In this document: positions 1 through 17,148 of the stretch, one piece after another
Layout of the letters: the number at the start of each line of letters is the position of its first letter
Numbering within the stretch: the first letter of the stretch is position 1
Virus record (IMG/VR): IMGVR_UViG_3300020202_000112
Coordinates: 1 to 45,034 of that record
DNA length: 45,034 nt
Reading direction: 5' to 3' (one strand)
Origin: a virus
Position numbers and translations under genes: made by a program
Notes under the pieces: generated by a model
Told to the model about the DNA's origin: nothing
Seen by the model: only the letters and a program-made list of their open reading frames with translations
The model's database searches: none

Positions 1-1063
1 TACGACAGCGCGAAGACCAGGGCGAGCGGGCATTGAACAGCGCATTAATGGCCTTGTTTGGATTGCCAGCAACCACGTCCTGCGGGCCAAGGCGCAGCAT
101 GAAATCGTCCAGCTTGTCTACAATGATACCAGCAAGGCGGCGCTCGTCGGGCTCTACGCTCTTGCCGACACTCTGGGTCACACGGCGTAGAACCTCAAGT
201 TCGCGCAAAGAGACTGGCCCACCCTCCACTTCAACAAGGCGCTGTAATGCGCTCGCGGCCTTGGGGTGAATACGGTAGTCAAGCCCTTCTCGTTGCGCAG
301 TCTGCAAAATGTCCTGCACAGCATTGGAATAGGACGGCTGAGAGACCACCAGCCCGGACTGGTCCGCTTCCTTGTATGCCTGATTTGCCGATCGGCGGAT
401 GGCATCCATGGAGGGAGCGGTGTTCTTCGGGCGGGTGACGGCATTGACCGTCTTGCCGATGACCTTGCCGACCACTGGAGCGCCGGCCCCAAACGCAGCG
501 CCAAATTTGCCGCCGCTCTTGGCCTTCTCTAGACGATCTTCCTGCCCCTGCCCTGAGCCATAGCCAGCGATGGCACCATACCCAGCGCCAACGCCTGCGC
601 CCTTGACGGCTTTTGTCGCGAGATTGCCACCCTTGAAAGCGAGACTAGCAGGCACCTTGCCCGTCATGAGCGCGCCGCCAACCTCTGCGCCAAGGGTCTG
701 GCCGGGGAATTGCTGGCGCGAGGCGTCCAGTTTGGCGCGCTGTTGCGCAAGAGCCTGGTCGTAGTTTTCACCTATGCTTGTCGGGCCCTCTCCAGTGATG
801 AGATTTTTCGCGGCATGCAGCGGCGCACTGGCGCCCGCCACGATTTCATCGCCAAAGCCAAGCAACGCGCCTTCCAGAACGGCAGGGCCCGGGTCATCAG
901 CACGAACGCGCGAGCCTGGAGCCTTGTCGCCCTTCGCGCCAATATTCGGCGTCTGCACATCGGCGCTCATTTCAGGTGGCTGTTGCTGTGCCTGGGCCAT
1001 ACGCATGCGCGCATTGGCCATGGCAATCGCCTTCTGCTTCTCAAGGCTTAGTTCTGTTGCCAC
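1..1063 (-). CDS. Probable internal virion / DNA-ejection protein, N-terminal part (crosses the window junction)
   Basis: An open frame runs leftward from a GTG at 1061-1063 to the window edge without a stop. On the circular molecule it continues at 45034 and ends at 44355, for about 531 residues. The GTG lies inside the last codons of the preceding virion gene (16 nt overlap) and follows an AGAGAGGG ribosome site. The protein begins MATELSLEKQKAIAMAN, has Ala/Gly-rich stretches (LGAEVGGALMTGK; GAGVGAGYGAIAGYGSG) around residues 110-160 that could act as amphipathic or membrane-active segments, then a charged helical region. No catalytic motif was found. Its place at the end of the virion operon, after two other low-complexity virion proteins, suggests an ejection or internal protein of a podovirus particle. 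That role is inference. The family was not recognised. Confidence 0.7.
   Translation of the reverse strand, partial: MATELSLEKQKAIAMANARMRMAQAQQQPPEMSADVQTPNIGAKGDKAPGSRVRADDPGPAVLEGALLGFGDEIVAGASAPLHAAKNLITGEGPTSIGENYDQALAQQRAKLDASRQQFPGQTLGAEVGGALMTGKVPASLAFKGGNLATKAVKGAGVGAGYGAIAGYGSGQGQEDRLEKAKSGGKFGAAFGAGAPVVGKVIGKTVNAVTRPKNTAPSMDAIRRSANQAYKEADQSGLVVSQPSYSNAVQDILQTAQREGLDYRIHPKAASALQRLVEVEGGPVSLRELEVLRRVTQSVGKSVEPDERRLAGIIVDKLDDFMLRLGPQDVVAGNPNKAINALFNARSPWSSRCR
22..147. repeat. 126-bp exact overlap, left copy
   Basis: Positions 22-147 are identical to 44909-45034. The repeat lies inside a coding frame that is in phase on both sides, so it is most simply the overlap left by circular closure of an assembly. 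Positions 1-21, outside the repeat, do not match 44888-44908. They encode a diverged version of the same protein stretch (SPWSSRCR against SQWSKLKK). Confidence 0.9.
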
Positions 1064-2226
1064 AGCGCCCTCTCTTCGGGTGTCATGTGCTCCCAGACGT
1101 TCGGGTCAACATCGGGTGGAGCGGTCTCCGCACCTCCCGGCATTGGAGCATAAGAACCGCCCGCCTCATTGGCTTGGGCAATCTTGTTGTCCACTATGGT
1201 CTTCATCATCTGGCGTAGATTGCCAGAGGAGGCCTTAGCGCGGCTGGCGGGGTCAGCACCTTCCGCTCCGAAGAGCTGCCCCGCCATTGCGCCCCAATTG
1301 TCAGGATTAAGCCCGCTCGGGTCATAGAGCATCTGATTCATAAGATCGAGGTCAGGCCCGTTGAGGACGCCCAAGTTATACAGCTCCTTCAGCTGAAGTT
1401 GGATGTTTCGGCGCTTCTGCGCAACAGCGTCAGTCTCTTGACCGGGCACGAACGTATAGCCGGACCGCTCAACCAATTTCTCATAGTCCGCCAATTCCTT
1501 GTCGAGCGTGGCATAGGATTGCTTGGCCTTGATCACGTCGCCTTGAATAGCAGCCGGGACAGTCTGCTGTTTCGAGCCCGCTGCGCCGAGATCCTGGCCC
1601 AAAGTGCCGGTTTCAGGATCAAAGGCATAAATGCGACCGTTCACCTCGCGGGTCTGGAACGGCGTCTTGCCCTTCGCGTTGAATAGGGCCGTCATCGCCT
1701 TTTCAGGATCGCCAGCGCCTAGCCAATACTGCGCCTGAAACCTCTGGGCCGGAGAAAACTCCATACCGGGCTGTCCACCGCCACCAGCCTGCGCAGGCGC
1801 GAATGTCGGAGGGGTGTCCGGTGTTGCTCCTGGCTGGTTCGGCAATGGCCCCATTGCTTCCATTGGCGCAGCACCAGGCATTCCGCCGCCCTGCAAAAGC
1901 GCCTGAAGCTGAGCCGTCATTTTCTTGCGGTTCTCGCGCTCCTCTTGCGCGTCTTGCATCTGGCTTTGCACTTGCTGCGCCCACAACCGCTTGGTTGAGT
2001 TTTCCAGCCCCTGCTGCTTCATGTCGCGGAAGGCACCGCCAAGGGCCTGCATGGGCCTCTGATGCGAGTTGGCGAGCATGTTTGCGCCCAACTCGACATA
2101 GGGCATGCCTGATGCCATCTCCGGCGACATGCCGGGGGGAGGCGCCAGACCAAAGGGATTCTGCGCTTGTGTCAGAGCGCTATTAAACCCCTGCCCGGCT
2201 TGGCTGAGAAAATCATAGAGTCCCAT
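1048..2226 (-). CDS. Virion-associated protein, probable internal/ejection protein
   Basis: The predicted product has 392 residues and starts MGLYDFLSQAGQGF. Residues about 70-110 form a Gln/Glu/Lys-rich helical stretch, residues 110-155 a Pro/Gly/Ala linker, and the second half is helical and charged. No enzymatic motif, signal peptide or convincing membrane segment is visible. A short motif near the N-terminus (NPFGLAPPPGM) vaguely resembles the QPFGF-PPQL motif at the ends of two other proteins in this operon. The gene lies 10 nt after its upstream neighbour and overlaps the next gene by 16 nt, so it is translated within the late operon. The role is inferred from position among podovirus tail and ejection genes. 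Confidence 0.75.
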   Translation of the reverse strand: MGLYDFLSQAGQGFNSALTQAQNPFGLAPPPGMSPEMASGMPYVELGANMLANSHQRPMQALGGAFRDMKQQGLENSTKRLWAQQVQSQMQDAQEERENRKKMTAQLQALLQGGGMPGAAPMEAMGPLPNQPGATPDTPPTFAPAQAGGGGQPGMEFSPAQRFQAQYWLGAGDPEKAMTALFNAKGKTPFQTREVNGRIYAFDPETGTLGQDLGAAGSKQQTVPAAIQGDVIKAKQSYATLDKELADYEKLVERSGYTFVPGQETDAVAQKRRNIQLQLKELYNLGVLNGPDLDLMNQMLYDPSGLNPDNWGAMAGQLFGAEGADPASRAKASSGNLRQMMKTIVDNKIAQANEAGGSYAPMPGGAETAPPDVDPNVWEHMTPEERALWQQN

Positions 2227-2236
2227 CTATCGCCCC

Positions 2237-3103
2237 TTAGAAGATGCTGCCCAAGAGACCGAGCCCGCCGCCAAGCAGTGCGCCCGGCAGACCACCCACA
2301 CCAAAGCCAGCCAAGCCGCCGCCTAGCGCGGAGGTAAACAGGTTGGGACTTGCCGCCTTCTGTGTCGTCGTCTGCGAGCCCCCTACCGCACCATTGAGAA
2401 GCCCCAGGTTCTGGCTGATCCAGTTAAAGTCCTTGTTGGCGTTGTAGTTGTATTTGTCCACATTCGCATCAATGAGCGCTTGGTTGTGCTGATCAAAGCC
2501 CTGCCCGGCGAGGCCCAGATTATTGATGTCCATGTAGTCTTGGTTTGCGAGGTCATTTGCATAGAGACCCGCCTGGATCTGCCTCTGCCGCTCATCGCCA
2601 TAATTCTGGTAGGCCATGTTTGAGGTGATGTCGCCTACGGCGCGGGAGAGGTCGGTCGCTGCCCCCTGGCGCGCGTCAATCATGGAATTTGAGCCATAGC
2701 GGCCGGCAGCGGAAAATGTGCTGTCAAGTCCCGGCGCGATATTCTTCATGTAGTTGTCAATGACTGGACGCGTCGCTGCGTCCATAGCGCTGCGCAAATG
2801 CGGGTTGCTGTTGGGGTCTAGAAACTGGCCCGAGAGCGTGTTCTGCGCGCTTGTCTGCGCTGCTCGCGTGAGTGGAGACCCCGCCGTCGCCCGTTGCGCC
2901 ATAGCATCAAGCGCACCTGTGGTATAGCCCGACATCGGCGCCACGGTTTGTCCGGGATAATAACCGGGCGCACCTCTCTTGTAGAGAGTCGAGAGGTCTT
3001 GATAGCCACCCTTCAGATAGGGCTGGACGCCAGACCACGGCTCGCTTGTTGTGGTTTGCCTGGCGTCGTTATCGTCGCCGCCCTTGCCGCCACCGATGCT
3101 CAT
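2237..3103 (-). CDS. Virion-associated protein with glycine-rich C-terminus, probable ejection/tail protein
   Basis: A 288-residue product with an acidic, Gly-rich N-terminus (MSIGGGKGGDDND), a central helical region rich in Ala, Asn, Gln and Tyr, and a C-terminal Gly/Leu/Ala segment from about residue 255 (GALLGGGLGLLGSIF). That C-terminus could insert into or perforate a membrane, as expected for an ejected internal protein. The gene starts 1 nt after the stop of the acetyltransferase-like gene. Similar proteins sit beside P22 gp10-like genes in many alphaproteobacterial phages, but I do not know an experimentally assigned function. Confidence 0.72.
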   Translation of the reverse strand: MSIGGGKGGDDNDARQTTTSEPWSGVQPYLKGGYQDLSTLYKRGAPGYYPGQTVAPMSGYTTGALDAMAQRATAGSPLTRAAQTSAQNTLSGQFLDPNSNPHLRSAMDAATRPVIDNYMKNIAPGLDSTFSAAGRYGSNSMIDARQGAATDLSRAVGDITSNMAYQNYGDERQRQIQAGLYANDLANQDYMDINNLGLAGQGFDQHNQALIDANVDKYNYNANKDFNWISQNLGLLNGAVGGSQTTTQKAASPNLFTSALGGGLAGFGVGGLPGALLGGGLGLLGSIF

Positions 3104-3104
3104 C

Positions 3105-3608
3105 TCAGTGTTCCTTAAGATCGTAAACCATGATCAAGATGCCCTCTGGCGTCTTGCCGTATTCATCGAAGCCGAGAAGCCTCATCCATCCCTTGCGGCC
3201 ATAGCCCACTGCATGGGTGCAGCCGTTGGCGCGGCCCCATTCCTTCAGCAATCGCCAGATCGGGAATACCCAGCCCCGGAAGTCTCTCCCGCCAACCAGC
3301 GGTACTTCCATGAAGCGCTTGCCGGGATGCTCACGCGACGTCGTTACTTCAGTAAGGATCGCGCCGGCGCATTCGTGTTTTTCCACATCCCAAGCAATCC
3401 ACAATTGCGCCCGCTTTGCCAGGAGATCGGAGAACACTTGCCGCTTGCTCTTCGGCCTTCTGACCGGTACGCGATCAATCGCCTTCTTCAGCAGCGGCCA
3501 TGCCACTTCCCAGATCACCGGCACATTGCACTGGGGAACGCCCTCAACAATGAAATCAGGCAACGCGGTAATAGTCGGTTCCGTCGCTGCGATATTGGCG
3601 AAAGTCAT
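3105..3608 (-). CDS. GNAT-like phage protein
   Basis: Up to 167 residues. The second half (WRLLKEWGRANGCTHAVGYG then RKGWMRLLGFDEYGKT) resembles the end of a GNAT acetyltransferase fold, a type common in podovirus virion operons (T7 gp13 has a related fold). No clear acetyl-CoA loop (Q/RxxGxG/A) is visible, so it may be structural rather than enzymatic. The ATG at 3608 overlaps the upstream gene by 53 nt. A TTG at 3566 that overlaps the upstream stop would give a shorter and perhaps more natural start. The reading frame is well supported, the exact N-terminus is not. Confidence 0.65.
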   Translation of the reverse strand: MTFANIAATEPTITALPDFIVEGVPQCNVPVIWEVAWPLLKKAIDRVPVRRPKSKRQVFSDLLAKRAQLWIAWDVEKHECAGAILTEVTTSREHPGKRFMEVPLVGGRDFRGWVFPIWRLLKEWGRANGCTHAVGYGRKGWMRLLGFDEYGKTPEGILIMVYDLKEH

Positions 3609-3918
3609 ACTGTGTCGGCATCGAGGCTGTTACCGAGCCTTCGATGTTCCCTGATTCAGGATCAATGGTGAGCGTGTTCGCCCCTGCCGTCTTGCGCACA
3701 ATGGCAAAGGTGACGCCGATCGCCGTATCTGCGTTTGCGGCGGGCAGCGTGATCGTGACGTTGCCGCCCGATGTATCGACAAACCAGGTCTTGTTGCCCT
3801 GCCCGTCATACATGACCTGCTGACCGCCTTCGGTCGCGAAGATCACGCTACGATCAGCTATCTGCGCCTCAGTGCTGGGCCTGTTGTTTGCTGGGCGGCC
3901 CGTGAACACTCTGTCCAT
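3556..3918 (-). CDS. Small virion protein, probable tail-associated
   Basis: A 120-residue product with alternating beta-type sequence (GNVTITLPAANADTAIGVTF; NTLTIDPESGNIEG) and a C-terminal DGTDYYRVA. This sequence style is typical of short beta-rich tail or fibre-associated domains. Its ATG overlaps the stop of the gp10-like gene by one base (TGATG), so translation is coupled. It may be a small accessory of the tail hub. No specific family could be named with confidence. Confidence 0.7.
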   Translation of the reverse strand: MDRVFTGRPANNRPSTEAQIADRSVIFATEGGQQVMYDGQGNKTWFVDTSGGNVTITLPAANADTAIGVTFAIVRKTAGANTLTIDPESGNIEGSVTASMPTQYDFRQYRSDGTDYYRVA

Positions 3919-5378
3919 CAGCGCACACCCTCGCGCACAGCATCAACGTCAAAGCCAATTGCGCGTTCAAAGCCGCCAGATATGTCCATCCGCACCCGCT
4001 GGAAGCGGCCATTGGAGCGCACGGGGCATATGCCGCTACTGTTCATTGACGAAGCAGAGCCGTAGCTGACGGAATCAATCAGGCGGTCACGCTTGCCGAC
4101 ACGCGCCGTTATGGTGGTTGAGCTGTTGCCCTGGATCAGCGGCCTGATGGCCCTGACAAACGCCCGCGCATCCGGGAAAATCTGTGCCTCGCCTGTTATG
4201 AACGTGGCTGTCTTTGCATCTCCGTCAAAATTGATCTGCTGATGGTTGGTATTGAAAGCCGACAGAATAGATGCGCCGCCTGCCCATACTTCACTGTCGA
4301 GCGAGAATGGCAGCGCATCCAGGCTGCTTGAAATCGCATCCAGCCCTTCCAGGGTGTAGCCAGGCGACAGGCTGTAGAACACCAGCTCCACTGTCTGCTC
4401 AACCCTGCTCCAGCGGTTGGCAACCCATGAATAGAGCAGCATCCGGTCAGGCGTTCCGTCAGTCGAAGCAGTTGACGGGTAGGAGAACACATAAAGCTTG
4501 TTCTTGACGTCGATGACGGATGTGATGCGATGCTTGTATGAGACGTTCAGATCATCAATGAGAAAGCCATCGACCTTCTCATCCCCGATTGGAACGGAAG
4601 CGTTCCCGTCGAAGGCATAGAAGCCCTTCTCCGACAGATAGAAGGTGACATTCTGGAAGCGCGACACAGAACCCGAGGCAAAGCAGCCTATGCCCGGAAC
4701 AACTTGGTCGAAACGAAAAATCAGCGGCGAGCCCACATAGGACGCGCGCCAAACATCCTTGTCGGTCAAGATGGCCGCGAAGTCACCGCCTGTTATCCCC
4801 CTTACAACCGAACCGGAGCCCGGCAAGTCCTGAAAGTCAGACTGCTGCGTGACATTGGCTGTCCAGCGCAGCGGGTTGTTGATCTGGCACCATTGCACCC
4901 TGTTGGCGTTGCCGGAGATATTGCCGACCATAACGAAATCGCGCACGGTCGCGATGTGATGGGCGATCGGGGCGGAAGCGGATGCGCTCTGGTCGCGGAA
5001 GCGTGTCGATGAGCCCAGCGTGAACACCTGCATGGCGTCAGTGCCATTGACGCCCAAGAAGGTGTTGCCGAAGGTCTCGAACTCCCAATGTTTCTCGACC
5101 GGCATGGTATAGGTTGCCGTTCGGGTGACATTGGTCCAAGTGGCAGCGCTCTCCTTGTAGAGGTTGGTAAGCGTTCCGGCGAAGGTGTGAACCGTCGCCA
5201 TTGTGTCAAGCGTCGATCGCGCCCCAACGACCCGATCTGAAATGGATGAGGAGTATGCCGTTGCTCCCGAGAAGGGGCCATAGGAGCCCCTGTACGGTAT
5301 GCAGTTAAGCGCCTCCTCCAGCTCGCCATTCATCAGGTCCGGCGTGTCCGGCTTAAGCTCTCCCAGCAATATGCGCAT
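3918..5378 (-). CDS. P22 gp10-like packaged-DNA stabilisation / tail hub protein
   Basis: A 486-residue product. The N-terminus (MRILLGELKPDTPDL, then ALNCIPYRGSYGPF) matches the start typical of the P22 gp10-like family, whose members plug the portal-adaptor channel after packaging and form part of the short tail hub. The body is beta-rich with repeated short strands (about residues 60-300), as expected for the propeller-like hub of that family. It lies directly downstream of the hydrolase gene and upstream of small tail genes, in the usual P22-like order. Assignment is by recognition of the N-terminal pattern and by context, not by alignment. Confidence 0.82.
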   Translation of the reverse strand: MRILLGELKPDTPDLMNGELEEALNCIPYRGSYGPFSGATAYSSSISDRVVGARSTLDTMATVHTFAGTLTNLYKESAATWTNVTRTATYTMPVEKHWEFETFGNTFLGVNGTDAMQVFTLGSSTRFRDQSASASAPIAHHIATVRDFVMVGNISGNANRVQWCQINNPLRWTANVTQQSDFQDLPGSGSVVRGITGGDFAAILTDKDVWRASYVGSPLIFRFDQVVPGIGCFASGSVSRFQNVTFYLSEKGFYAFDGNASVPIGDEKVDGFLIDDLNVSYKHRITSVIDVKNKLYVFSYPSTASTDGTPDRMLLYSWVANRWSRVEQTVELVFYSLSPGYTLEGLDAISSSLDALPFSLDSEVWAGGASILSAFNTNHQQINFDGDAKTATFITGEAQIFPDARAFVRAIRPLIQGNSSTTITARVGKRDRLIDSVSYGSASSMNSSGICPVRSNGRFQRVRMDISGGFERAIGFDVDAVREGVR

Positions 5379-5381
5379 GGC

Positions 5382-7763
5382 TCAGGCCCATGAGCCCCAG
5401 AGGAAGGGCGGCGCAGTTCGCTGGGCGAGCTGCGGAGGAGCAAAGCCGAAGGGCTGCTGTGACGGCGGCGTGGTCTCCCAAGGCAGCTTTCCGACTGCGG
5501 TTTCCTCTGACTTCTTGTCGTCGCGGCGCTTGCCGGTGCCATTGTTGCGCCCGGCAAAAGCCATGCGGTCGCTGGCATTGTCCCTTGTTGCTTGGTGCCG
5601 GGCTCTAGCGGCCATCGTGGCGGGGCTGGGCGGCACAAGGTACGGCGCCCAATCGAATGCCTGCTGTAGCTTTCTCTTTGTCTCGGGAGATAACGGCTCA
5701 GTGATGCCGGGTATGGACGGCAAGCTTGGGATAGACCAACCGCGAGAAGGAGGTGCTTGTGCAACCGTAGTCGGCGCTTGCGGTGCCTGAATGCTGCTGA
5801 GCGGGTCATATTCCGCTACGCGCTCCATCGGATCTTCTTCGGGCTGCGCTGTTGCGAGCCCATCCGCAGGAAGGCCGGAAGCCTGTCCTGCATAAGGCCC
5901 TTCACGCGCTGCTATCGGACCCACGAAACCGTTATTGGTCGGGACTTGAATGCCCGAGAGCGGGTCATAGCTGCCCGGCCCAGGCGGGCCGCCGTAGCCG
6001 GTCGGATTTGGCAATCCCTCTCTCGCTAGGCCCGGATTGAACGACATGCCGGTTGATTGCCAGCCGACAGGCCCGGTCGGGGCATAATTCGTGTCATATG
6101 GGTTGCGAGCGATCTCCTGGCTGACGTCCCATGAGGAAAGCGCCTCATTGGATTCAGGCAGCCGGTCCTGCATCTTGCCCGCCTGTAGCGTCCCCGCCAC
6201 GGCAGCCATTGGGCTCTGATAGCCTGCCATGCCCATCGCGGATGGAGCTTGGGGCATGCCAGAAAGGCCAGTCATCGGGCTTTGATACCCGCTCATATTC
6301 ATGTTGGACGGGGCTTGCGGCATCCCGGTTAGACCGGCCATGGGGCTGTTATAGCCGGCCATGTTCATGTTGGGCTGGGCAGCCGGAAAGCCCGTAGGCG
6401 CTTGCGGTTCAGGCCGTGCCGGCGTCAGGCTTGCCATGCCGCCGAGAAAGCCGTTGACTTGCTCGCGCGGAGTCGGGATCTCGCTTGCTCCCATTTGCGG
6501 CTGTTGTGCTTGGAGGGCGGCGATGCGTGATGCCAGATCACCAGCGTTGGCAAGTGCAGGCATTTGAGGATTGGCTGGTGTGAGTGTTCCAAAGCCGCCT
6601 GGCGAGCCGAGCACCTGATTGCGAGCGGCCGCAACTGTGCTCCCCATAAAGTCCGGGTTGCTGAAGCTGTGCGCCCCATAGGGCGTGGCTCCAGTGCGTC
6701 CCCATGAAGGGTTGGCAATATCGGGATTGTGGTAGTGCGTAGCGTTCTGGACGGCCTCTGGCGCATTTTGCAGACTGCCGTAGGGCGACATGCCAGAGGC
6801 AACTGCCGCCAGAGCGTCGGCATATCCGGGCGTCCCCGGCCTTGCGTTTATGTAGCCTGCGTTTCTTACGCTTGGCACCCGAATGCCATTGGCATCATAG
6901 GCCGCCAGCATCCCCATCGGATCGGTCGTGTATTGCGCATCGCGAAAGGCGGGATTAGCCGCCGCAAGATCCATGCGATTGAACATGGAGCGGGCGGCGG
7001 CGGCTTGCTGGTCGGGCGGAAGCCCGCCGACCTCGCCCACCATCGTCTTTGCCATCTGGTGCAGGGCAGCGACGGTCCGCGTGGGATCGAGCCCGTAACG
7101 CTCTGCCATAGCGAGACCAAGCGAAGTGGCCGTTCGCTGAGCCGCTTGCGGCGTCGAGAGACCGCCTGGTCTTGTGCCTTGGGTTACGCCAGGGCCACGC
7201 GATACTGCCCTTGCTTGGGCAGCAAGCGACTCTGGCGAACGGCCAGACATATAATTGCCGCCCATGCGGGCCGCGTTGCGGGCGTTGGCCTGCGCGACTG
7301 CCGCCGCAGCCATAGCACCAGCATTAAGCCCGCCCTTCGGCGTTCCCTTCGGGCCGGAATACCCGCCATTGCTGCTTGTCTTGCCCCCAGACGCCGCTGC
7401 TGCGGCTCTGGCAGCATTATTCAGGCCGCCTGCCGGTGTGCCTTTTGGCCCCGAATAGCCGCCCTTGCTGGTATTGCCAGTGGTGCTACCGCCCTTCACA
7501 CCTCCGGTTTGGCTGGAGGCAGCACCCATCTTTCCCGATGAGACGCCCGCGCCACCCTTGGAGGTATTGCCAGTGGATGCACTGGCGCCACCCTTCACCC
7601 CGCCAGTCTGTGACGAGCTGGCGCCCATTTTGCCGCCGCTAGATTGGCTGCCTTGATTTTGCGAGCCGCTTGGGGTGCCGCTCTTCGCCGCTGCCGACTT
7701 CGCCGCAGCTGAAGAGCCGGCCGGTTTCCCGCCTGCCATCTGGTCAGCTTTATCGAGGGCCAT
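5382..7763 (-). CDS. Repeat-rich virion protein with SleB-like cell-wall hydrolase domain
   Basis: A 793-residue product in four parts. Residues about 40-150 are Gly/Ser/Lys repeats (GKMGA-SSQTGGVKGG-GNTSKGG, twice; SGPKGTPxGGLN, twice). Residues about 225-376 look like the SleB hydrolase fold: a Glu in MVGEVGG (E244) at the place of the catalytic Glu, then ATHYHNPDIANPSW and GAHSF, which match the conserved C-terminal signature. Residues 465-529 are three 22-residue repeats. The last 34 residues carry the LPWET...QPFGF.PPQL.QR motif shared with the protein at 8778-9101. A likely role is local peptidoglycan cleavage during DNA entry. The gene starts after AAGGTG and is separated from its upstream neighbour by a plus-strand cassette. 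Confidence 0.82.
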   Translation of the reverse strand: MALDKADQMAGGKPAGSSAAAKSAAAKSGTPSGSQNQGSQSSGGKMGASSSQTGGVKGGASASTGNTSKGGAGVSSGKMGAASSQTGGVKGGSTTGNTSKGGYSGPKGTPAGGLNNAARAAAAASGGKTSSNGGYSGPKGTPKGGLNAGAMAAAAVAQANARNAARMGGNYMSGRSPESLAAQARAVSRGPGVTQGTRPGGLSTPQAAQRTATSLGLAMAERYGLDPTRTVAALHQMAKTMVGEVGGLPPDQQAAAARSMFNRMDLAAANPAFRDAQYTTDPMGMLAAYDANGIRVPSVRNAGYINARPGTPGYADALAAVASGMSPYGSLQNAPEAVQNATHYHNPDIANPSWGRTGATPYGAHSFSNPDFMGSTVAAARNQVLGSPGGFGTLTPANPQMPALANAGDLASRIAALQAQQPQMGASEIPTPREQVNGFLGGMASLTPARPEPQAPTGFPAAQPNMNMAGYNSPMAGLTGMPQAPSNMNMSGYQSPMTGLSGMPQAPSAMGMAGYQSPMAAVAGTLQAGKMQDRLPESNEALSSWDVSQEIARNPYDTNYAPTGPVGWQSTGMSFNPGLAREGLPNPTGYGGPPGPGSYDPLSGIQVPTNNGFVGPIAAREGPYAGQASGLPADGLATAQPEEDPMERVAEYDPLSSIQAPQAPTTVAQAPPSRGWSIPSLPSIPGITEPLSPETKRKLQQAFDWAPYLVPPSPATMAARARHQATRDNASDRMAFAGRNNGTGKRRDDKKSEETAVGKLPWETTPPSQQPFGFAPPQLAQRTAPPFLWGSWA
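6177..6371 (-). repeat. Three 22-residue in-frame repeats
   Basis: Residues 465-529 of the hydrolase protein contain three tandem units of the form xMxMxGYxSPMxxLxGMPQAPS. The units are about 66 bp and have drifted at the DNA level while keeping the protein pattern, which suggests selection on a flexible spacer. Copy number could vary between relatives. Confidence 0.85.
7320..7637 (-). repeat. Glycine/serine/lysine-rich in-frame repeats
   Basis: Two copies each of a GKMGA-SSQTGGVKGG-GNTSKGG unit and of a SGPKGTPxGGLN unit encode a low-complexity N-terminal arm of the hydrolase protein (residues about 43-148). A disordered, positively charged arm fits packing with DNA inside the capsid, but that is inference. 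Confidence 0.8.
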
Positions 7764-7810
7764 GCTTTGTTCACCTTGAAAAAGTCACAGTCAGAGGCAA
7801 TCTCTTGCCC

Positions 7811-8149
7811 ATGCGGAAAGTGTTGATAGCTTTGGCTTTGGTGTGCAGTGCGACGAGTGCGGCTGCGGTCCCGGCCCCCCAATATTGCTCGGGGAAGGAT
7901 TCGCGGCTCACTTACTCGGACGATGGATTGACGATGCTTATCCGTACCGGCTCACGGACAGAGCGGTTTACGATGTTTGGCTCAGTCGGTAGCGGTCTGA
8001 ACGGCACCGTGTTCAAAACCCGCAGCGGCGGCCAGGAAGTATTGCGCTATGCGACGGTGGTAATCGACTCCAACCCGGGCCACGAAGTCAAACAAGACGT
8101 TCTGATCTTCCGCGACCGCGTATTCTGGCCCTGCTCTAAAACGAAGTAG
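7811..8149 (+). CDS. Secreted small protein, probable moron
   Basis: A 112-residue product on the strand opposite the surrounding late operon. It begins with a clear Sec signal peptide (MRKVLIALALVCSATSAAA, cleavage likely near AVPAPQYC). The mature part has two cysteines (PQYC and FWPC) that could form one disulfide, and beta-type sequence between them. The gene overlaps the end of the minus-strand adaptor gene by 14 nt and lies 47 bp from the divergent start of the hydrolase gene. A TTGAAA element with a poor -10 lies upstream. Insertion between late genes, reverse orientation and a secreted product fit a moron expressed in the lysogen, for example for envelope change or superinfection exclusion. 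The family was not recognised. Confidence 0.72.
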   Translation: MRKVLIALALVCSATSAAAVPAPQYCSGKDSRLTYSDDGLTMLIRTGSRTERFTMFGSVGSGLNGTVFKTRSGGQEVLRYATVVIDSNPGHEVKQDVLIFRDRVFWPCSKTK

Positions 8150-8774
8150 GCCTGATCTTCCCCGAAGAGTTGCGCTGGTTGGTCTTGCTCTTGAGATCTG
8201 AATAGGCGCGCTGCTCGGCAATGGCCTGTGCCGTAGCCATGGCTTCATCCTTCAGGATATTCAGGTAAATATCCCACTTGGCCCTTGCCCGGATGAGATT
8301 GCGCGCGTCTGAGAACCAAGAAGCCGAAGAAGAAGCCGAATAAGACGCAGACGCCGCGCTGGACAGATCAATCAGCCCATCAAGGATGAGCGTGTAATTC
8401 TGGTCTGCCTTGCTGTCGAACTGTATCTTGTCGCCATACACGGCAAATTCGGTCGGCAGCGACGGCGACACTCCGTCCTGCCGCGCCATGATGAAATGAT
8501 AGTCCCTCTGGATCATATCGAAGTCATTGTTGGTCGAAAGATTGACCCTGAGACGGTCGATTTCCAGATAGCGGTTCGGAAGCGTACTCATCGCGATGAA
8601 GGCAACGCTAGAGGACAGCGTTACCGAGGCGCGATAGCTCTCATTGAACCAGAAGCGCTCGTTCTTATAGGCGTCGATCGCATCGACCACGGCGGTCTCG
8701 ATCTGGGTGGATAGGTCAGACCTTTCCAGATCATCTGCGATCTTCGCCAGTAATGTGGTTTTTGTTCCGGCCAT
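8136..8774 (-). CDS. Head-tail adaptor-like protein
   Basis: A 212-residue, mostly helical product (LLAKIADDLERSDLSTQI; AVVDAIDAYKNERFWFNES) with a Ser/Ala stretch near residues 140-152 (SSAASASYSASSSASWF) and a charged helical C-terminus. The N-terminal pattern and size fit the phage adaptor proteins that bind below the portal (P22 gp4 / SU10 adaptor type). It is placed between the head genes and the gp10-like hub gene, as expected. The call rests on pattern and gene order. Confidence 0.65.
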   Translation of the reverse strand: MAGTKTTLLAKIADDLERSDLSTQIETAVVDAIDAYKNERFWFNESYRASVTLSSSVAFIAMSTLPNRYLEIDRLRVNLSTNNDFDMIQRDYHFIMARQDGVSPSLPTEFAVYGDKIQFDSKADQNYTLILDGLIDLSSAASASYSASSSASWFSDARNLIRARAKWDIYLNILKDEAMATAQAIAEQRAYSDLKSKTNQRNSSGKIRPTSF

Positions 8775-8777
8775 TGG

Positions 8778-9101
8778 TCAGAACCCGCCCCATTGCCACG
8801 GCGGCAGATTCCTTTGCACCAACTGCGGCGGCACAAAGCCGAATGGCTGTTGCGGCTGCTGGGGTGTCGGCGCTCCGGTTTCCCATGGCAATCTCGGACC
8901 GCCACCACCCGGATTGTTGTTCGGGCCCTGCCCGCCTCCGCCGCCCTGCGGACGCTTGTTGAACAGGTTACGGATGCGGTTAATGATCTCTTCGCGGCGG
9001 TCCATTCCTGCAAAGTTCTGTTGCGGCTGACCGCCTACTTCAGGCACTTGCGGGTGTGGAGATGCAGGCCTCTGAGGAAAGTTCGACCACATTTTGGACA
9101 T
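8778..9101 (-). CDS. Small proline/glycine-rich virion-operon protein with LPWET/QPFGF C-terminal motif
   Basis: A 107-residue product. Residues 1-30 are Pro/Gln-rich, residues 33-50 form a short basic helix (RREEIINRIRNLFNKR), then a Gly/Asn/Pro linker and a 37-residue C-terminal tail with LPWET, QPFGF, PPQL and QR in order. The same ordered motif ends the 793-residue hydrolase protein encoded two virion genes downstream, although the DNA has diverged. The protein could be a linker or docking partner that uses the same binding site. No known family was recognised. The start overlaps the upstream small zinc-finger gene in another frame. Confidence 0.7.
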   Translation of the reverse strand: MSKMWSNFPQRPASPHPQVPEVGGQPQQNFAGMDRREEIINRIRNLFNKRPQGGGGGQGPNNNPGGGGPRLPWETGAPTPQQPQQPFGFVPPQLVQRNLPPWQWGGF

Positions 9102-10496: not shown

Positions 10497-11962
10497 TATG
10501 CAGCCCTCGCCAGCTTGCGAGACCGCTTGACAACTTCATGCTCAGCCCTGCGTAAAACCGGACCCCAATCGCCTTCCTCGCTCTGGCGCAGCATTTCGAC
10601 AGAGCCATAAAATGGGTTTGGCCCCCTCACTCCATAGCGCCAGGCCACCATCTTTGGTGTCAGGCACAGTGTAGGAAGCCCTAGGGCTCCACACAGATGC
10701 AGGAACGAGGTATTGACCGTGACAATCAGATCCATCTCAGATGCGAGCGCGGCAGTCTGGTCATAAGACGCGATCGCATCGCCCCAATGATGGATAGGAA
10801 TGCCCAGCTTGTTGCCAACCTCTGCGCATTCATCAGCGGCCCAATCGTGATACTGGAAGCTGAAGAAATGGCAGTTGGGTATTTTCAGAATGTCCGCCCA
10901 TTGCTCTAGGCGGATTGAGCGCTTGTCTATGCGGGTTGCTTTGAGCCCGCCACACCAAGATATGCCGACCTTGAGGCCGGTGAAAGGCCGCAGAAGCCCC
11001 TGCCCCTTGGCCCTGAGATGGTCATTGGCCTTGAGGTAGGAGACTTTGGGGAAATCGTCGTTGTTTTTGCGGAACCACCTGCCGAGACTGCCCATCGGGA
11101 CGAAGGCATTGACTTTGTGATTCGCGATCCAGTCGAAGGGCTCATCGAGCCCGCAAGTTGGGTAGACCGCTTCTGCTTGGGGGAATGCGTCACGAAACAG
11201 GTTCTCCAACCGTTTGTCGCAGTCTATCACAACTCGGCACTTCTTGAAAAGGTCAGGAAGCATTGAGGCGAACATGATCTCATCGCCTACGCCCTGCTCA
11301 CCATAGCAGATGACTGTTTGTCCCTCCGTCCCGTCCCATGGCTTTAGCCCGCCATAGGTCTTGAGCTTCCTTTCCATGGCCTTGTATGTGGCCGGCAGGA
11401 ATGCAACCTCGTCGTAAAGCTTGAAGCCCTGTTCCCAATCTCCGGCTTCGAGATGAGCAAGGCCCTTGTTCCAGAGTGCGGAGCGGTCTTGCGGATCGAC
11501 CTTCAGCGCTTCATCGCACCAGTATATGCACCTGTTGGGCTGGCCGGCGTTGATATAGAGCCCAGCCATGCCTGAGAGAGCCCAGGCTTTGTATTGATTG
11601 ATACCGCGCTCGTTGTAGATCGGCTTCGCTTCAGCAACCTCTATGGCCTTCTTGAAGCACTCAGCGGCTTTGTCGTCCTTGTGCTCGCCCTTATAGGCGA
11701 CACCCAGGTTTACCCATGGCGCTGCATCATTGGCGCCGCAGCGTATCGCCTCATGATAGAGGGCGATTGCGAGACCATTGCGGTCAAGCCTTGAACTGAC
11801 GACAGCTAGGCCGAATAGTATCGCCGGATGGCCCGGCCATCGGCTCAGGGCTTGGTTGTAATGACGCTCCAGATCAAGATACTGTTCCGGTGTCGATCGC
11901 GGATCGACTGCCAGTCTGCCGCTTGCCTGTTCAAGGTGCGTCAGGACTTCCTCAAGCGTCAT
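10496..11962 (-). CDS. TPR-repeat glycosyltransferase (GT9/GT41-like)
   Basis: A 488-residue product. The N-terminal half has TPR-type repeats (AIRCGANDAAPWVNLGVAYK; KVDPQDRSALWNKGLAHLEA), and the C-terminal half resembles the GT-B nucleotide-sugar binding half of TPR glycosyltransferases (VKVGISWCGG; DLIVTVNTSFLHLCGALGLP, then an ending around CLTPKMVAWRYG). The gene has a good ribosome site (GGAGGG) and follows a strong intrinsic terminator, so it is probably expressed below the level of the capsid gene. A glycosyltransferase inside a head-to-tail gene order suggests glycosylation of a virion or surface component. Confidence 0.8.
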   Translation of the reverse strand: MTLEEVLTHLEQASGRLAVDPRSTPEQYLDLERHYNQALSRWPGHPAILFGLAVVSSRLDRNGLAIALYHEAIRCGANDAAPWVNLGVAYKGEHKDDKAAECFKKAIEVAEAKPIYNERGINQYKAWALSGMAGLYINAGQPNRCIYWCDEALKVDPQDRSALWNKGLAHLEAGDWEQGFKLYDEVAFLPATYKAMERKLKTYGGLKPWDGTEGQTVICYGEQGVGDEIMFASMLPDLFKKCRVVIDCDKRLENLFRDAFPQAEAVYPTCGLDEPFDWIANHKVNAFVPMGSLGRWFRKNNDDFPKVSYLKANDHLRAKGQGLLRPFTGLKVGISWCGGLKATRIDKRSIRLEQWADILKIPNCHFFSFQYHDWAADECAEVGNKLGIPIHHWGDAIASYDQTAALASEMDLIVTVNTSFLHLCGALGLPTLCLTPKMVAWRYGVRGPNPFYGSVEMLRQSEEGDWGPVLRRAEHEVVKRSRKLARAA

Positions 11963-11972
11963 CAGCCCTCCA

Positions 11973-12006
11973 TAAAAAGAAGCCCCGGCAGTTTCCCGCC
12001 GGGGCT
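11973..12006 (-). terminator. Strong intrinsic terminator after the capsid genes
   Basis: On the minus strand AGCCCCGGC and GCCGGGGCT form a perfect 9-bp stem with an 8-nt loop, followed by TTCTTTTTAT. It lies between the decoration-like gene and the TPR glycosyltransferase gene. It should limit read-through from the highly expressed capsid segment to the downstream late genes. Confidence 0.88.
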
Positions 12007-12012
12007 GTTTTG

Positions 12013-12447
12013 CTACTGATCCATCACGTAGCGGACGAACAGGGTCACGGACAAAGAAGCCGTACCCGAGGTCGTCGCACCATTGACGGTCAGGGTCATC
12101 GTGGCATGACGCGGGTAGTAATCGTCCGAGACCGAGAGCTTGTAGGGCAAGCCGTTGGTCTTGACGAAGGACGCCTGGGTCGGGCTGAAGGTAGCCGACC
12201 CATGCACCGCGCCTTGCGAGGTGTAGTCATTGCCGATCTGGAAGATGAATGTTCCATCGACAGATTTGCCGATCAGGCGAACGTCCGTAACCGTCGCACC
12301 ATGCGGGATCTTGATGTTGTTGAACTTAATCACGTCGCCGTCCGAGAGGGACGCCGAAGTGACATAAGTCTGAACACGTTCCACCGCTCCGGTGATCGAG
12401 ATACGGGGCTGCTGCGGTTCGGCTGCGTTTGCGTTAATGGTAGCCAT
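12013..12447 (-). CDS. Head decoration-like protein
   Basis: A 144-residue beta-rich product (RISITGAVERVQTYVTSASL; ATMTLTVNGATTSGTASLSV) encoded 21 nt after the major capsid gene with a good ribosome site (GGAGACATGAAACATG). Its size, fold style and position directly after an N4-gp56-type capsid gene suggest a capsid decoration or minor head protein. I cannot tie it to a characterised member. Confidence 0.68.
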   Translation of the reverse strand: MATINANAAEPQQPRISITGAVERVQTYVTSASLSDGDVIKFNNIKIPHGATVTDVRLIGKSVDGTFIFQIGNDYTSQGAVHGSATFSPTQASFVKTNGLPYKLSVSDDYYPRHATMTLTVNGATTSGTASLSVTLFVRYVMDQ

Positions 12448-12468: not shown

Positions 12469-13548
12469 TCACGGTGCCGTCGCGTAGGTCGGGATCAGGA
12501 TGGTGCCGAAGTCGATCGAATTGAACTTCGTCTTCTTGCACCCCATGATCGTCTGGACCGACACGCCGAACTGACGCTCGTAATCGAACACGTCTTCGAT
12601 GTATTTGGGCTCTTCCGAATAACCCTGGCCCCAAGCGCATGCCAAAGCCTGCGCACCGCAGAACACGGCGCGCCGGATATTGGCATTCGTTGAGATGGGC
12701 TTGTTCGTGTCGCCCGGCAGGCGTGTCCATTCATGGAGCACGACACCGTTATAGACGCCCAAGGCACCCGTGAAGATCGGGTTATCCTCCACCGCACCGC
12801 CCTGCATGGCCGCCTTTTGAATGTCGAGCCACTGGCCGGAATTGGTGCTGGTCCGCATAGAGCGCACCTGATCGGGATGCAGGAAGCAAACATAATAGCG
12901 GTTGCTTCCGACAGTGATCGGGCGGATCAGCGGAGAGGCAGTCTTGGCAATGTTCACCGCACGATCGAGAACGGTGAGGTTGAACGTTTGAGAAGCCGAG
13001 ATCGAGGCCTCCGAGGACGTTCCGGTGTCACCGTCGCCGTAGATGATACGGCGCGCCGAACCAGTGCCGGTCGAGGCAGCAAGAGCGGCGTTATTGCCGG
13101 TGTAGATCGTGTCCGACTGATCCGTGTAGCCAGTCAACTGATTGGCCGCAGCGGTATCGATGCGCTCGGAATACCAGTCCTGGATAGCCAGGCGGGCTTC
13201 CTCGCGCACGGAGAACGGAACACGCTGCGCATCAATGCGGGTCTTCACCCGGACTGCATGCGCAAGGTCGTTGATAAAGAGCGAGTCGTTATAGACTGTC
13301 AGGGCTTCTTCATTGCCCTCCAGCATATCGTTCTCGGTTGCGCCGCGACCAGAGAGCTGGACACGGAGCGGAATGGTGATTTTGTCACCCGCGCCTTTGC
13401 TGGTGTCATCGAAAACCTGAATGAGGCTATTGGACGACTTGCCCATAAACTTATAGGCCATCGTCTCTTTAAGAGCCTCACGCGCGATCTTCTTCGACCA
13501 CAGCTTAACGGCAGACGGATGGTTCACCGGGAAATCGGTGGCAGCCAT
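12469..13548 (-). CDS. Major capsid protein, N4-gp56 type
   Basis: A 359-residue product. Diagnostic stretches include GRGATENDMLEGNEEALTVY, the following SLFINDLAHAVR, and QRVPFSVREEARLAIQDWY, which match the N4-gp56 (DUF4043) capsid family, an HK97-fold group. The C-terminal part (YIEDVFDYERQFGVSV) is also typical. The start follows TAGGAGACAGCG. It is located directly after the scaffold gene, as usual, and before a small decoration-like gene and a strong terminator. Confidence 0.93.
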   Translation of the reverse strand: MAATDFPVNHPSAVKLWSKKIAREALKETMAYKFMGKSSNSLIQVFDDTSKGAGDKITIPLRVQLSGRGATENDMLEGNEEALTVYNDSLFINDLAHAVRVKTRIDAQRVPFSVREEARLAIQDWYSERIDTAAANQLTGYTDQSDTIYTGNNAALAASTGTGSARRIIYGDGDTGTSSEASISASQTFNLTVLDRAVNIAKTASPLIRPITVGSNRYYVCFLHPDQVRSMRTSTNSGQWLDIQKAAMQGGAVEDNPIFTGALGVYNGVVLHEWTRLPGDTNKPISTNANIRRAVFCGAQALACAWGQGYSEEPKYIEDVFDYERQFGVSVQTIMGCKKTKFNSIDFGTILIPTYATAP

Positions 13549-13713: not shown

Positions 13714-14625
13714 TCAGTTGCGGAACAAACTGGATGAATGCCCTGCGGTCTTTGCAAGCTTGTCCCAAGCGGCATCGAAAGCAGCGCCCTTGAGATTAGC
13801 CATGTCAGCGATGCTCATGTCATTCTGCGGTGGCTTTCCGCCAGCAGAGATTGATGTGGCAGCGGCAGCCTTTTCGTTGAGCTTCTGCACCTGCTCAGCC
13901 GGAGGCGGCGGATCAGGTTGTTTACTCTTCGGTGCATAGCCGCGCGCCTTGGCATAGCCCAGGATCACTTCGGCAGGATTGCGGCCATTCATGAATGATG
14001 TGCGCGCAAGATGCAGTTCTTCTGCCTTAATGGTCTCGTTGGCGGCCAATGGATTCATGCCCATGGCCGTCAGCTCGCCCAAGCGGCTCTGGACGAGATA
14101 GTTATAGGCGTCTTGGAACGACGAGTCCGTGGTTACAGCTTGGCGAATTGTGCCGAGATAGGCGGTCTTGACCTGCTCGACTTCGCTTGCCTGGCGCGCG
14201 CCGTCTTCAAACTGCCGCAGCTTCTGCTGTAGGCCCTGAATGACGGTGAATGGGTCTGTGCTCGGGTCAGCGTCAAGCGGATCGAAGGCCTGTTCTTCTT
14301 GCGGGGGTGCTTGAATCTGCTGCTGGAGGCCCTTGAATGCCTCCATGAGGTTCTGGAAGTCCTGCTCGCGCTTCTTGCGCTCCTCACGCTCGGCATGAAG
14401 AGCGGCGATCGGGACAAACTTGTCGGGCTCTTTCTCTTTCGGCTCTGCCGTCGCGGCGGCGGGCGCTTGCGGAGCGTCTGCCTCTGCCTGCGGCGCGGAT
14501 GCTTCCGGCTCAAGAGCGGGCTCTGGCGCAGGCGGTGCAGCCTCAGCAGGCTTTACTTCCGCTTCTGCAACTTTCGCTACTTCTGCGGCGAAATCGGTAT
14601 CAGACTGAGTGCCGAAAATGCTCAT
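13714..14625 (-). CDS. Capsid scaffold protein
   Basis: A 303-residue product: MSIFGTQSDTDFAAEVAKVA, then an Ala/Pro/Glu-rich acidic region (residues about 20-65), a coiled-coil segment (AALHAEREERKKREQDFQNL and onward), and a helical basic C-terminus. This composition and its place between portal and major capsid genes are standard for scaffold proteins. The ATG at 14625 overlaps the upstream stop as ATGA and follows AGAAGGAC, so the longer frame from 14676 is not used. Confidence 0.85.
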   Translation of the reverse strand: MSIFGTQSDTDFAAEVAKVAEAEVKPAEAAPPAPEPALEPEASAPQAEADAPQAPAAATAEPKEKEPDKFVPIAALHAEREERKKREQDFQNLMEAFKGLQQQIQAPPQEEQAFDPLDADPSTDPFTVIQGLQQKLRQFEDGARQASEVEQVKTAYLGTIRQAVTTDSSFQDAYNYLVQSRLGELTAMGMNPLAANETIKAEELHLARTSFMNGRNPAEVILGYAKARGYAPKSKQPDPPPPAEQVQKLNEKAAAATSISAGGKPPQNDMSIADMANLKGAAFDAAWDKLAKTAGHSSSLFRN

Positions 14626-14816
14626 GAATTGTCCTTCTTGTAGATGCCAAGCTCCGCCATGGCCGCTTGCATACAATTGTGAATGAAGCCTGACATTGAA
14701 TCAGAGCCGCTAGGCTCAGGCAGGCCGTGCTTTCTGGCAATTTTCTTCAGCTCAATGACGTAGGGTTGATCATCAGTATGCGTGGTCGGTTTGATAGGAT
14801 GTCCGAAAATTGACAT
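14622..14816 (-). CDS. Small protein between portal and scaffold
   Basis: A 64-residue product starting MSIFGHPIKPTT after GAGGAGCGTGA, 10 nt downstream of the portal gene, and coupled to the scaffold by ATGA. Its first five residues, MSIFG, are the same as those of the scaffold protein that follows. Two cysteine/histidine positions (IHNCMQ, HTDD) are not arranged as a known metal site. Function unknown. Confidence 0.72.
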   Translation of the reverse strand: MSIFGHPIKPTTHTDDQPYVIELKKIARKHGLPEPSGSDSMSGFIHNCMQAAMAELGIYKKDNS

Positions 14817-14826
14817 TCACGCTCCT

Positions 14827-16878
14827 CTAGTTCGCGCTCACCTGCTGCTTTGAGGGCTTGGGCTTCTTCGCGTTGATGATGGTGGCCTGTGCTTGCGCAT
14901 TGGCCTTCATAGTCTCATTGCGGTTCTGGAACTGGGCGCGCTCTTGCTCTATCTGCATCTCGAAAACGAAACGCTCGCGCTGCATCTGCATCTCGGCGGC
15001 GGCTTCCTCACGCTTGAGCTGAAGGGCAAGCGCTGCCTTCTCACGCTCAATCTGCATGCTCTGCTGGGCTTCAACCTGTTTAAGCTGAAGCTCCTGTTCC
15101 TTAGCCATGGCCTGGATTTTCACCTTCTCCATTTCTGGATTGGGCGGGGGGCCTTGCTCGGCCTTCTGCTTCTGAATCTCCTTGTATTTCTCCATGAAGG
15201 ACTCAGGCAGCGGGCTGTATTCTAGGATGAGGCCCATTTCCTCCGGGCCAACACGATCGCCCACGATGGGGAGAAGCGTGTTCATCACGGCCCAAGTGGC
15301 TTCCTTTTGGTTGGGAGCGCTTGAGCCTTGGTCCACAATCACGTCATATTCGGCGACTTCTGGCGAGGCCCAGTTCTGTACGAAGGGCTGGTACTTGTCG
15401 CCCTCATCCGTGGTGATGCGAATAAGCCGGCCATCCTGCATGTAGTTCTGCATGAAGTAGAGCCAGCAGCGACCGGCCATCTTGCGATAGCGGCGCAGCG
15501 AGTCGAACAATGGGGCAAGCAGCGTGACTGCGCTTTGCTTGCGCTGGTATTCCAGGACGCCTGCCTGCTCGCGATCGGCCATGCCCAGCAGCTCTTGATT
15601 GACGCCGGACACGTCGCCGAAAGACTGGTTGGCATATTCCAGAAGCTTGTCGAGCCCCGCCGGCAGCTGCGAGACAGGCTTGGGCAAGAGTTTCGGATGC
15701 TGGCCCAATGTTCCGGGCTTAACCCATGTTATTGCGTCAGCCCGCGCCCAAGTGGCCTCGAATTTAGACACGTCATCAACCGCGTCTTTCTCCAGGATCA
15801 CACCGCCCTTGGCGTTGGAGTTGATGATATGCAGGATCTGGCTAAGCCATTTATTGGACCACTGCTGCGGGTCCATGAGCAGGCGCATAAGGCCGAACCA
15901 ATGGCCCTTGTTACGGTCCCTCATGCCGGTGATGCAGTGATAGGTGAAGCCCTTGCGATAGGGGGATTTCTCCTCCTTCACCATCTCAGAGCCAACCCAG
16001 AACTCGCGCTTATAGACGGTGCGCTTTTTCTTGGCATGGGGCGCACCCATTCCGATCAGCGCATCAAATTCCGCCTTGTTCTTGCTGTACTCCTCTTGGC
16101 TAAGCTCGATCTTCTGGTTGTTGAGCGGGTTAGCTATGATATGGACGGTTTCTTTCTCAGAGAACTGGTGCTCAATGACGGGAATGCTGCGATGGCTCTC
16201 ACCAGAGCTGCCGTCGCCACGATAGCGGTTCTTGTGGTCGATGCGCTTGGGGTCTTCGTCGCCTACTTCGTCATCGGCCCAGATGTCGTCCGAGATAAGC
16301 GAGCCGTCCCAGTCCGGGAAGATCGCCTTCACCTCGTCCCGGCTCATCCACTTCTTGCGGATGATGTAGCGGGCATCGGCCAGGTTGGGCTTCTTGCTGC
16401 TCGGGTCCCAGAGCATTTCAAAGGGATCAATTCGCTCGCGAATCAGATCATATTCCGGGTTCTGGTCGTCGCTCAGCCGGTCCTCAGTCCAGCCCATGCC
16501 GCAGATGCAAGTATCCCTGAAGGCGTCCGATTCCTCATATTCGGCATCGCAACCGTCGCGGAAGAAATTGGACGCATTGGTCAGAAGCTCATTGACCTTG
16601 GCATCGCCCTGAGTGCGCGGGATATAGCGGGTTTCCTGCCGGTTATTGACCTCATAGCCGATGACCGCGTCGATCAGAACCTTGGAGCGATTGAAGGTGA
16701 TGGGCGGCCTTAGCTGCTCCTCAAGTATTTGCCGGTCCTGCTCGTCCCATTGGTCATTGGCATAGAAGGCAAAGCATTTCTTGGCTTCCGAACGCCATGC
16801 AGATGCGTGAGTGCGCGCGGCTTGGTATCGGGCCCTGAGTCTTTCCAGCCCGCTATCAAGTTCAGTGTCTTCGGCCAT
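14827..16878 (-). CDS. Portal protein, P22 type
   Basis: A 683-residue product. The N-terminal region (AFYANDQWDEQDRQILEEQL; RPPITFNRSKVLIDAVIGYE) and the DPFEMLWDPSSKK motif are characteristic of P22-type portals, and the length fits. The C-terminal 130 residues form a long Gln/Glu/Lys coiled coil (MEKVKIQAMAKEQELQLKQV and onward), comparable to the barrel helix of this family. It is the DNA-entry ring of the head and sits between terminase and scaffold genes. The reverse strand contains a long open frame (15328-16713) that I regard as a shadow. Confidence 0.93.
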   Translation of the reverse strand: MAEDTELDSGLERLRARYQAARTHASAWRSEAKKCFAFYANDQWDEQDRQILEEQLRPPITFNRSKVLIDAVIGYEVNNRQETRYIPRTQGDAKVNELLTNASNFFRDGCDAEYEESDAFRDTCICGMGWTEDRLSDDQNPEYDLIRERIDPFEMLWDPSSKKPNLADARYIIRKKWMSRDEVKAIFPDWDGSLISDDIWADDEVGDEDPKRIDHKNRYRGDGSSGESHRSIPVIEHQFSEKETVHIIANPLNNQKIELSQEEYSKNKAEFDALIGMGAPHAKKKRTVYKREFWVGSEMVKEEKSPYRKGFTYHCITGMRDRNKGHWFGLMRLLMDPQQWSNKWLSQILHIINSNAKGGVILEKDAVDDVSKFEATWARADAITWVKPGTLGQHPKLLPKPVSQLPAGLDKLLEYANQSFGDVSGVNQELLGMADREQAGVLEYQRKQSAVTLLAPLFDSLRRYRKMAGRCWLYFMQNYMQDGRLIRITTDEGDKYQPFVQNWASPEVAEYDVIVDQGSSAPNQKEATWAVMNTLLPIVGDRVGPEEMGLILEYSPLPESFMEKYKEIQKQKAEQGPPPNPEMEKVKIQAMAKEQELQLKQVEAQQSMQIEREKAALALQLKREEAAAEMQMQRERFVFEMQIEQERAQFQNRNETMKANAQAQATIINAKKPKPSKQQVSAN

Positions 16879-17088: not shown

Positions 17089-17101
17089 TCTTGGGCTCCT
17101 T

Positions 17102-17148
17102 ATGCGCTCATGTATGATCCGACGCGATGCTGTCTGTCGCGCCATCTG
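17102..17148. repeat. 47-bp exact repeat, copy 1 (relic of terminase 3' end)
   Basis: Identical to 17351-17397. In the frame of terminase this copy would also encode the C-terminal residues ending SYMSA, then TAA. It is separated from the real terminase end by one small gene, so it marks a duplication or recombination junction. Confidence 0.93.

Follow-up and report, generated by a model that had tools for sequence, protein, structure and literature searches.

A C-terminal tail shared by two unrelated virion-operon proteins of a P22-type podovirus as a possible docking tag for virion cargo

Why should two unrelated proteins encoded in one virion operon end in the same peptide? The question is raised by the 45,034-base IMG/VR virus record IMGVR_UViG_3300020202_000112, which was analyzed at its full length and is called the window below. 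It is probably an almost complete genome with an assembly join because its ends overlap imperfectly (positions 15–147 and 44902–45034 are 98.5% alike). The window contains a P22/LUZ24-type virion operon on the minus strand. The large terminase (gene position 17349–18665) and portal protein (14827–16878) were assigned by sequence appearance and position, with no family search. The major head protein (12469–13548) matched PF13252 (E = 4e-76) and phrog_334, the tail adaptor (8136–8774) matched SU10_adaptor (E = 6.9e-7), and the 288-aa DNA ejection protein (2237–3103) matched phrog_4287 (E = 8.6e-22). The nozzle, or tail stabilization protein (3918–5378), was attributed to phrog_3287 (E = 1.8e-75) and resembles the solved nozzles 8zkk/8zkm (E about 1e-28). 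A putative scaffolding protein (13714–14676) was named only from its position between portal and coat, and it had no family match in Pfam or PHROGs.

The two proteins in question, both encoded on the minus strand, are a SleB-like protein of 793 aa (5382–7763), whose gene lies directly upstream of the nozzle gene, and a protein of 107 aa (8778–9101); the adaptor gene sits between them. Glycosyl/methyltransferase-like genes and a gene for a 73-aa Zn-ribbon-like protein are listed between the major head gene and the 107-aa gene. The tails comprise 34 C-terminal residues in the SleB-like protein (LPWETTPPSQQPFGFAPPQLAQRTAPPFLWGSWA, 5385–5486) and 37 in the 107-aa protein (LPWETGAPTPQQPQQPFGFVPPQLVQRNLPPWQWGGF, 8781–8891), as the preliminary description had placed them. 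A within-window BLASTP search aligned them with 61% identity over 36 columns (E = 6.7e-10). The alignment pairs 34 residues, of which 22 are identical, and contains a single 4-residue indel. The motifs follow the same order in both tails, and the spacing, also described as the same, is so except for this indel, which falls in the P/Q linker that connects LPWET with QPFGF. With the 107-aa protein as a query against the record, the SleB-like tail was found at E = 4e-10. The Smith–Waterman score of the two tails was 131, against a mean of 45 (sd 6.7, maximum 82) in 1000 shuffles, and composition-preserving shuffles ruled out a low-complexity artefact as the source of the tail and core similarity. 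Beyond the tail, the two proteins are unrelated.

The DNA of the tails differs, again in agreement with the preliminary description. The aligned codons are identical at 67 of 102 positions, codon choice differs at 10 of the 22 identical residues, and about half of the identical residues at which synonymous variation is possible show such variation. The dN/dS ratio was estimated at about 0.17 from only 34 codons, with synonymous sites nearly saturated (dS = 1.7). Because of the differently coded residues and the low dN/dS, the shared peptide appears to be under selection at the protein level. Synonymous divergence near saturation, taken together with this ratio, points to an ancient copy or to convergence, with the peptide retained since. 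The tail peptides are probably disordered, as judged from modeling.

The SleB-like protein consists of a low-complexity N-terminus, a SleB/Hydrolase_2-like region (about residues 205–385; 6609–7151), Pro/Met repeats, a basic linker and the tail. The name comes from a sub-threshold, partial C-terminal Pfam match of this region to SleB/Hydrolase_2 (PF07486; 15.5 bits against a cut-off of 27, E = 0.028), and its MVGE...NRM...THYHNP...HSF pattern looks right by eye. The whole 793-aa protein gave no match in Pfam, and a single-sequence AlphaFold model of the region had a pLDDT of 44.5, which made it unusable for a fold search. The 107-aa protein has a disordered N-terminus, one helix, a Gly-rich linker and the tail. 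AlphaFold2 without an alignment gave a mean pLDDT of 61 for this protein, with the helix at residues 35–48 and the remainder at low confidence.

The same tail had been expected in other phage proteomes. This prediction failed because, among everything searched, the full LPWET...QPFGF tail is unique to this phage. A tblastn search with the tail against 50,697 phage records gave nothing significant, and the best hit of a tail profile in 76 genomes from the host order of the relatives was partial and non-significant (E = 0.027). Degenerate DNA patterns run against 2.9 million IMG/VR viral contigs returned 5 matches for WET..QPFGF and 2 for PFGFxPPQL, all judged to be due to chance. They were rejected as true carriers on account of stop codons or a wrong frame around the match, and contig L047 was rejected since the rest of its ORFs have a eukaryotic or giant-virus-like appearance. 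Rhizobium, Bradyrhizobium, C72C1, Methylophilales and Manatee Spring phages showed no comparable shared tail. For the 107-aa or 793-aa protein as a whole, homologues were found neither in phages, viral contigs, Pfam and PHROGs nor in Reyranella/Vineibacter prophages. The LPWET tail is also missing in the relatives whose nozzles are 59–62% identical to that of the window, namely L003, L004/L020 (a Vineibacter terrae prophage), L005/L021 (a Reyranella sp. CPCC 100927 prophage) and L010. A search of the open-access literature found no description of the motif.

What recurs in the nearest relatives is a shorter core, FG-x-[LMAV]-x-P, in N-terminal or C-terminal position on many virion-operon proteins that are not related to one another. 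This core is the modular form of the putative tag, and in the window it is extended to LPWET...PFGFxPPQLxQR...PPxxWG. In 65 curated proteins with hand-picked start codons, taken from the window, L003, L005, L020, L010 and L064, the pattern FG.[LMAV].P occurred 21 times against 1.3 expected, one match cut by a contig end being left out of this final count. Seventeen of the 21 matches lie no more than 35 residues from a terminus, where about 0.3 would be expected. When all 400 dipeptides were placed in XY.[LMAV].P, FG ranked first with these 17 terminal matches, and the next best dipeptide had 8. With the window and L003 as the discovery set, the hold-out phages (L005, L020, L010 and L064) gave 10 terminal matches against 0.16 expected; note that this same clade served to define the motif, and that some discovery proteins have homologues in the hold-out phages. 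Removal of paralogues left 12 terminal matches against 0.27 expected. In 79 more distant ejection-protein loci, the sole broad negative control, the core was not enriched, which marks the motif as clade-specific. Thus, the observation of a shared tail is real and extends past the preliminary description, in the form of a short core belonging to this clade and not of a widespread long tail.

Among the carriers of the core are an ejection-module protein, the two tail proteins of the window (SleB-like and 107-aa) and swappable effectors; their location in the virion is inferred from gene order. The ejection-module protein (392 aa; 1048–2226, minus strand) is encoded downstream of the ejection protein and of the nozzle; the genes of the two tail proteins lie upstream, on either side of the adaptor. 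A weak NPFGLAPPP relative of the tail had been noticed in this protein. It is present at residues 23–31 (2134–2160), and its position is conserved; homologues carry the core near residue 22–25. Residues F25, G26 and P29 are retained in L010 (QPFGSMSPP) and L005 (QTFGAMMPMP), and F-G...P belongs to only 12 invariant columns in the alignment with these homologues, which are 22–32% identical. The L005 homologue contains a transglycosylase region. The SleB-like protein has a further, non-terminal copy of the core, GGFGTLTP (6576–6599, minus strand). The core is missing from the 288-aa ejection protein and from a protein of ~530 aa split across the record ends, both of which are likely internal proteins.

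In the relatives, three unrelated types of effector have a common C-terminal tail, FGxLxPxxLxEER: HExxH-containing proteins, a 369-aa ART-like protein and a DUF3626 protein. The 369-aa ART-like protein had no Pfam match and was named by similarity to its neighbors; the effector set of the relatives also shows a sub-threshold match to ART-PolyVal in an ART-like protein. The DUF3626 protein has a shifted tail variant, TFGALMGPALLDEENR, with a QFGLMAP match upstream of it. Other proteins of the relatives start with M[AT]DPFG[TA]LxP (MADPFGTLAP, MTDPFGALLPP) or with MAEWWELLQLDPFGTLAP. Profiles of the window tails and the effector tails matched each other only at non-significant E-values, and their best matches were motif carriers. 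None of the ART-like, DUF3626 or HExxH effectors is present in the window.

Docking, cleavage and packaging had all been proposed as roles of the tail. A docking or packaging tag is the best-supported reading because the core recurs on the termini of unrelated virion-operon proteins, and we give about an even chance to the tail being a terminal tag for loading cargo into or onto the virus particle. Such a tag, carried on a flexible linker, would bring cargo to the virion during assembly, with the head as the most likely destination, and all tags would bind the same site on an assembly protein. This protein would probably be scaffold or coat, in line with the P22 ejection proteins. The putative scaffolding protein of the window is accordingly named here as a candidate receptor. 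Candidate cargo in this phage would be the SleB-like cell-wall hydrolase, the 107-aa accessory protein and the 392-aa ejection-module protein; the additional blocks LPWET and PPxxWG would extend the docking site in this phage, and the relatives would load interchangeable host-modifying effectors via the same tag. Somewhat more tentatively, we suggest a general cargo-loading code in this clade of P22-type podoviruses, in which one modular tag, placed at either protein end, could load the virion, inside or outside, with interchangeable enzymes and host-modifying effectors. Three published precedents would all agree with a terminal tag on swappable cargo. In P22, scaffold is needed for the incorporation of ejection proteins, and coat shells formed without it lack gp7, gp16 and gp20 (PMC8402733). 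In T4, a 10-residue sequence is enough to package foreign proteins (PMC9026906), and phage ART and peptidase effectors were predicted to be packaged and injected virion cargo (PMC5512222).

Scaffold or coat is favored as the receptor. Its main competitor is the adaptor ring, given that nozzles of the wider family often begin with PFGExxPD or FGxFLPD, which resemble the core (FG.[LFWMI].P in 26 of 88 distinct N-termini; 33 of 88 with L or F before G). The tag might mimic this N-terminus, bind the adaptor/portal ring and so place the hydrolase and the small protein on the tail tube, where a cell-wall hydrolase is plausible; the tail-coding genes also lie on either side of the adaptor gene, each stopping 3 bases ahead of a start codon, that of the adaptor or that of the nozzle. 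We consider such tail-side docking unlikely, since the window nozzle begins with MRILLGELKPD and has no PFG, the solved nozzles, which can be aligned only beyond about profile position 80, do not show what the nozzle N-terminus binds, and head cargo is the better-known role of ART-like effectors. A little less probable again is that the tail was copied by duplication or recombination and kept without a docking role, for instance as a solubility or linker segment, which would suit its P/Q/G-rich context. Protein ends have indeed been copied in the wider family. In a more distant prophage (L167 in G216), two paralogues located between adaptor and nozzle that are ~46% identical overall have an identical 29-residue C-terminus, and three proteins around the nozzle share a near-identical N-terminal module with DPFGWDSLPG, after which two of them diverge. 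In L149–L152, two adjacent proteins after the ejection protein are ~80% alike over their 66 C-terminal residues and different before them. Synonymous divergence in these ends is lower than in the window tails, and therefore recent copying is part of the story; the window tails, however, combine near-saturated synonymous sites with a low dN/dS, and the core recurs terminally in unrelated proteins.

The tails might instead contact each other or a third cargo, with the 107-aa protein serving as chaperone or competitor and so governing how the SleB-like protein is loaded. The long tail version is limited to these two proteins, and the 107-aa protein has little beyond helix, linker and tail, but relatives possess the core without any 107-aa counterpart, and we regard this explanation as improbable. 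Still less probable is a translational-coupling or ribosome-binding element copied before two structural genes. The geometry TGA-NNN-ATG is identical at both junctions, TGA-CCA-ATG between the 107-aa and adaptor genes (8772–8780) and TGA-GCC-ATG between the SleB-like and nozzle genes (5376–5384), and TGGGGC occurs in both tails shortly before the start codon, which could explain the common final W-G. Because both tails end at such a junction before a structural gene, part of the W-G ending could reflect ribosome-binding constraints. The similarity, however, extends about 100 bases upstream, is most pronounced in the protein sequence and includes synonymous changes as well as an indel that keeps the frame, and the core is also N-terminal in relatives. 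The remaining proposed role, a signal for removal of the tail during maturation, receives the lowest probability, a very slight one. A prohead protease is not known from P22-type phages; no gene for one was seen between portal and coat, no cleavage consensus was recognized in the tail, and the sole trypsin-like ORF (40427–41425) has a signal-peptide-like N-terminus and adjoins the lysis genes. Precedents for such cleavage are the propeptides of T4 (PMC9026906) and those of giant phages (PMC7411985).

Scaffold is a known requirement for the packaging of accessory proteins in P22-type phages, and no portable packaging signal for these proteins was found in the literature consulted. If the docking tag is real, a short sequence moving between unrelated cargo would allow fusions to test directly how packaged proteins are chosen. 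Hitherto unknown packaged effectors would be recognizable from their sequence alone, and the tag could be put to use in filling P22-like particles with proteins.

Several known systems can be compared with the proposed tag. In encapsulins, short cargo-loading peptides bring enzymes into an HK97-fold shell, as described in PMC8346489 and PMC11866011; these are bacterial nanocompartments and not phages, the shell gene here encodes a phage major head protein, and the comparison implies no relation in sequence. The polyvalent and Alt-type effectors (PMC5512222) resemble those of the relatives, which likewise have ART-like, DUF3626 and HExxH-containing proteins beside virion genes, although as single-effector proteins, several with a common terminal tag, and not as long multi-domain chains. 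The P22 proteins gp7, gp16 and gp20 belong to the same virion architecture as here (P22/LUZ24-type adaptor, nozzle and ejection module) and are cargo that needs scaffold to enter procapsids; in contrast to the tag proposed here, the accessible text of PMC8402733 reports no common tag for them, and the binding regions mapped there are N-terminal parts of 314 residues in gp20 and about 130 in gp7. The T4 capsid targeting sequence (CTS) of IPI, IPII, IPIII and Alt is likewise a short terminal sequence on otherwise unrelated internal proteins (PMC9026906), and the carriers described here, with a cargo status inferred from gene position, show the same pattern. The CTS, whose role fusions have proven, is N-terminal, about 10 residues long and cut off by the prohead protease gp21, whereas the proposed tag of this P22-type phage clade is Pro-rich, known from sequence, C-terminal in the two window tails and N-terminal in some copies of the core in relatives. 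In T4, the cargo turns over and the tag persists (PMC9026906).

Two adjacent proteins encoded after the ejection protein in locus L149 (10666-11298 and 11302-11976), and also in L150-L152, have C-terminal 66 residues that are about 80% alike and preceding parts that are different. They add another example of proteins with a tail in common. In the more distant prophage L167 (G216), an N-terminal module of approximately 60-110 residues was found to be almost identical among the proteins flanking the nozzle gene (3-890, 11478-12347 and 13193-13423), and the C-terminal 29 residues (SSKETLVRRGDQVYRVGGKRGSRGSFYSD) were identical in two paralogues (2548-4128 and 6892-8451). In the wider family of homologues of the window nozzle (3918-5378), the N-terminus is often PFGE[WYF]xPD or FGxFLPD, and these frequent N-termini resemble the cargo core motif.

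In the window, the SleB-like protein contains internal repeats of the GYxSPMxGLxGMPQAP type (6190-6450), two small neighbouring ORFs (16879-17145 and 17149-17394) have a common N-terminus, MARQTASRRIIHER, and two further small ORFs (20063-20302 and 25745-25915) share WQPIETAPKxG...THWMPLPEPP. An ORF for a trypsin-like protease with a GNSGG motif and a signal-peptide-like N-terminus (40427-41425) adjoins lysis-type genes (39138-40336). The record ends repeat each other (15-147 versus 44902-45034; 133 bases, 98.5%) and split one long ejection-module gene; the window probably represents a complete genome, joined imperfectly.

An N-terminal region (LPRETQSSLRPWGEMLNPLEWTPGAAVRDT...) is common to the likely effectors of the relatives L005 (1981-6177), L003 (5698-7368, 11493-12602 and 15334-16491), L004/L020 (1862-3154, 8117-9193 and 17671-18483) and L064 (1847-2938). 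In L005, a 59-residue piece of a methyltransferase-like protein is present twice with 100% identity (3297-3500 and 5976-6692), a trace of recent duplication within the effector region. The middles of the likely effectors vary (HExxH-containing, DUF3626 and ART-like), and several of these proteins have one common C-terminal tail. This layout, namely a shared N-terminal region, variable middles and a common tail on several proteins, resembles that of polymorphic toxins.
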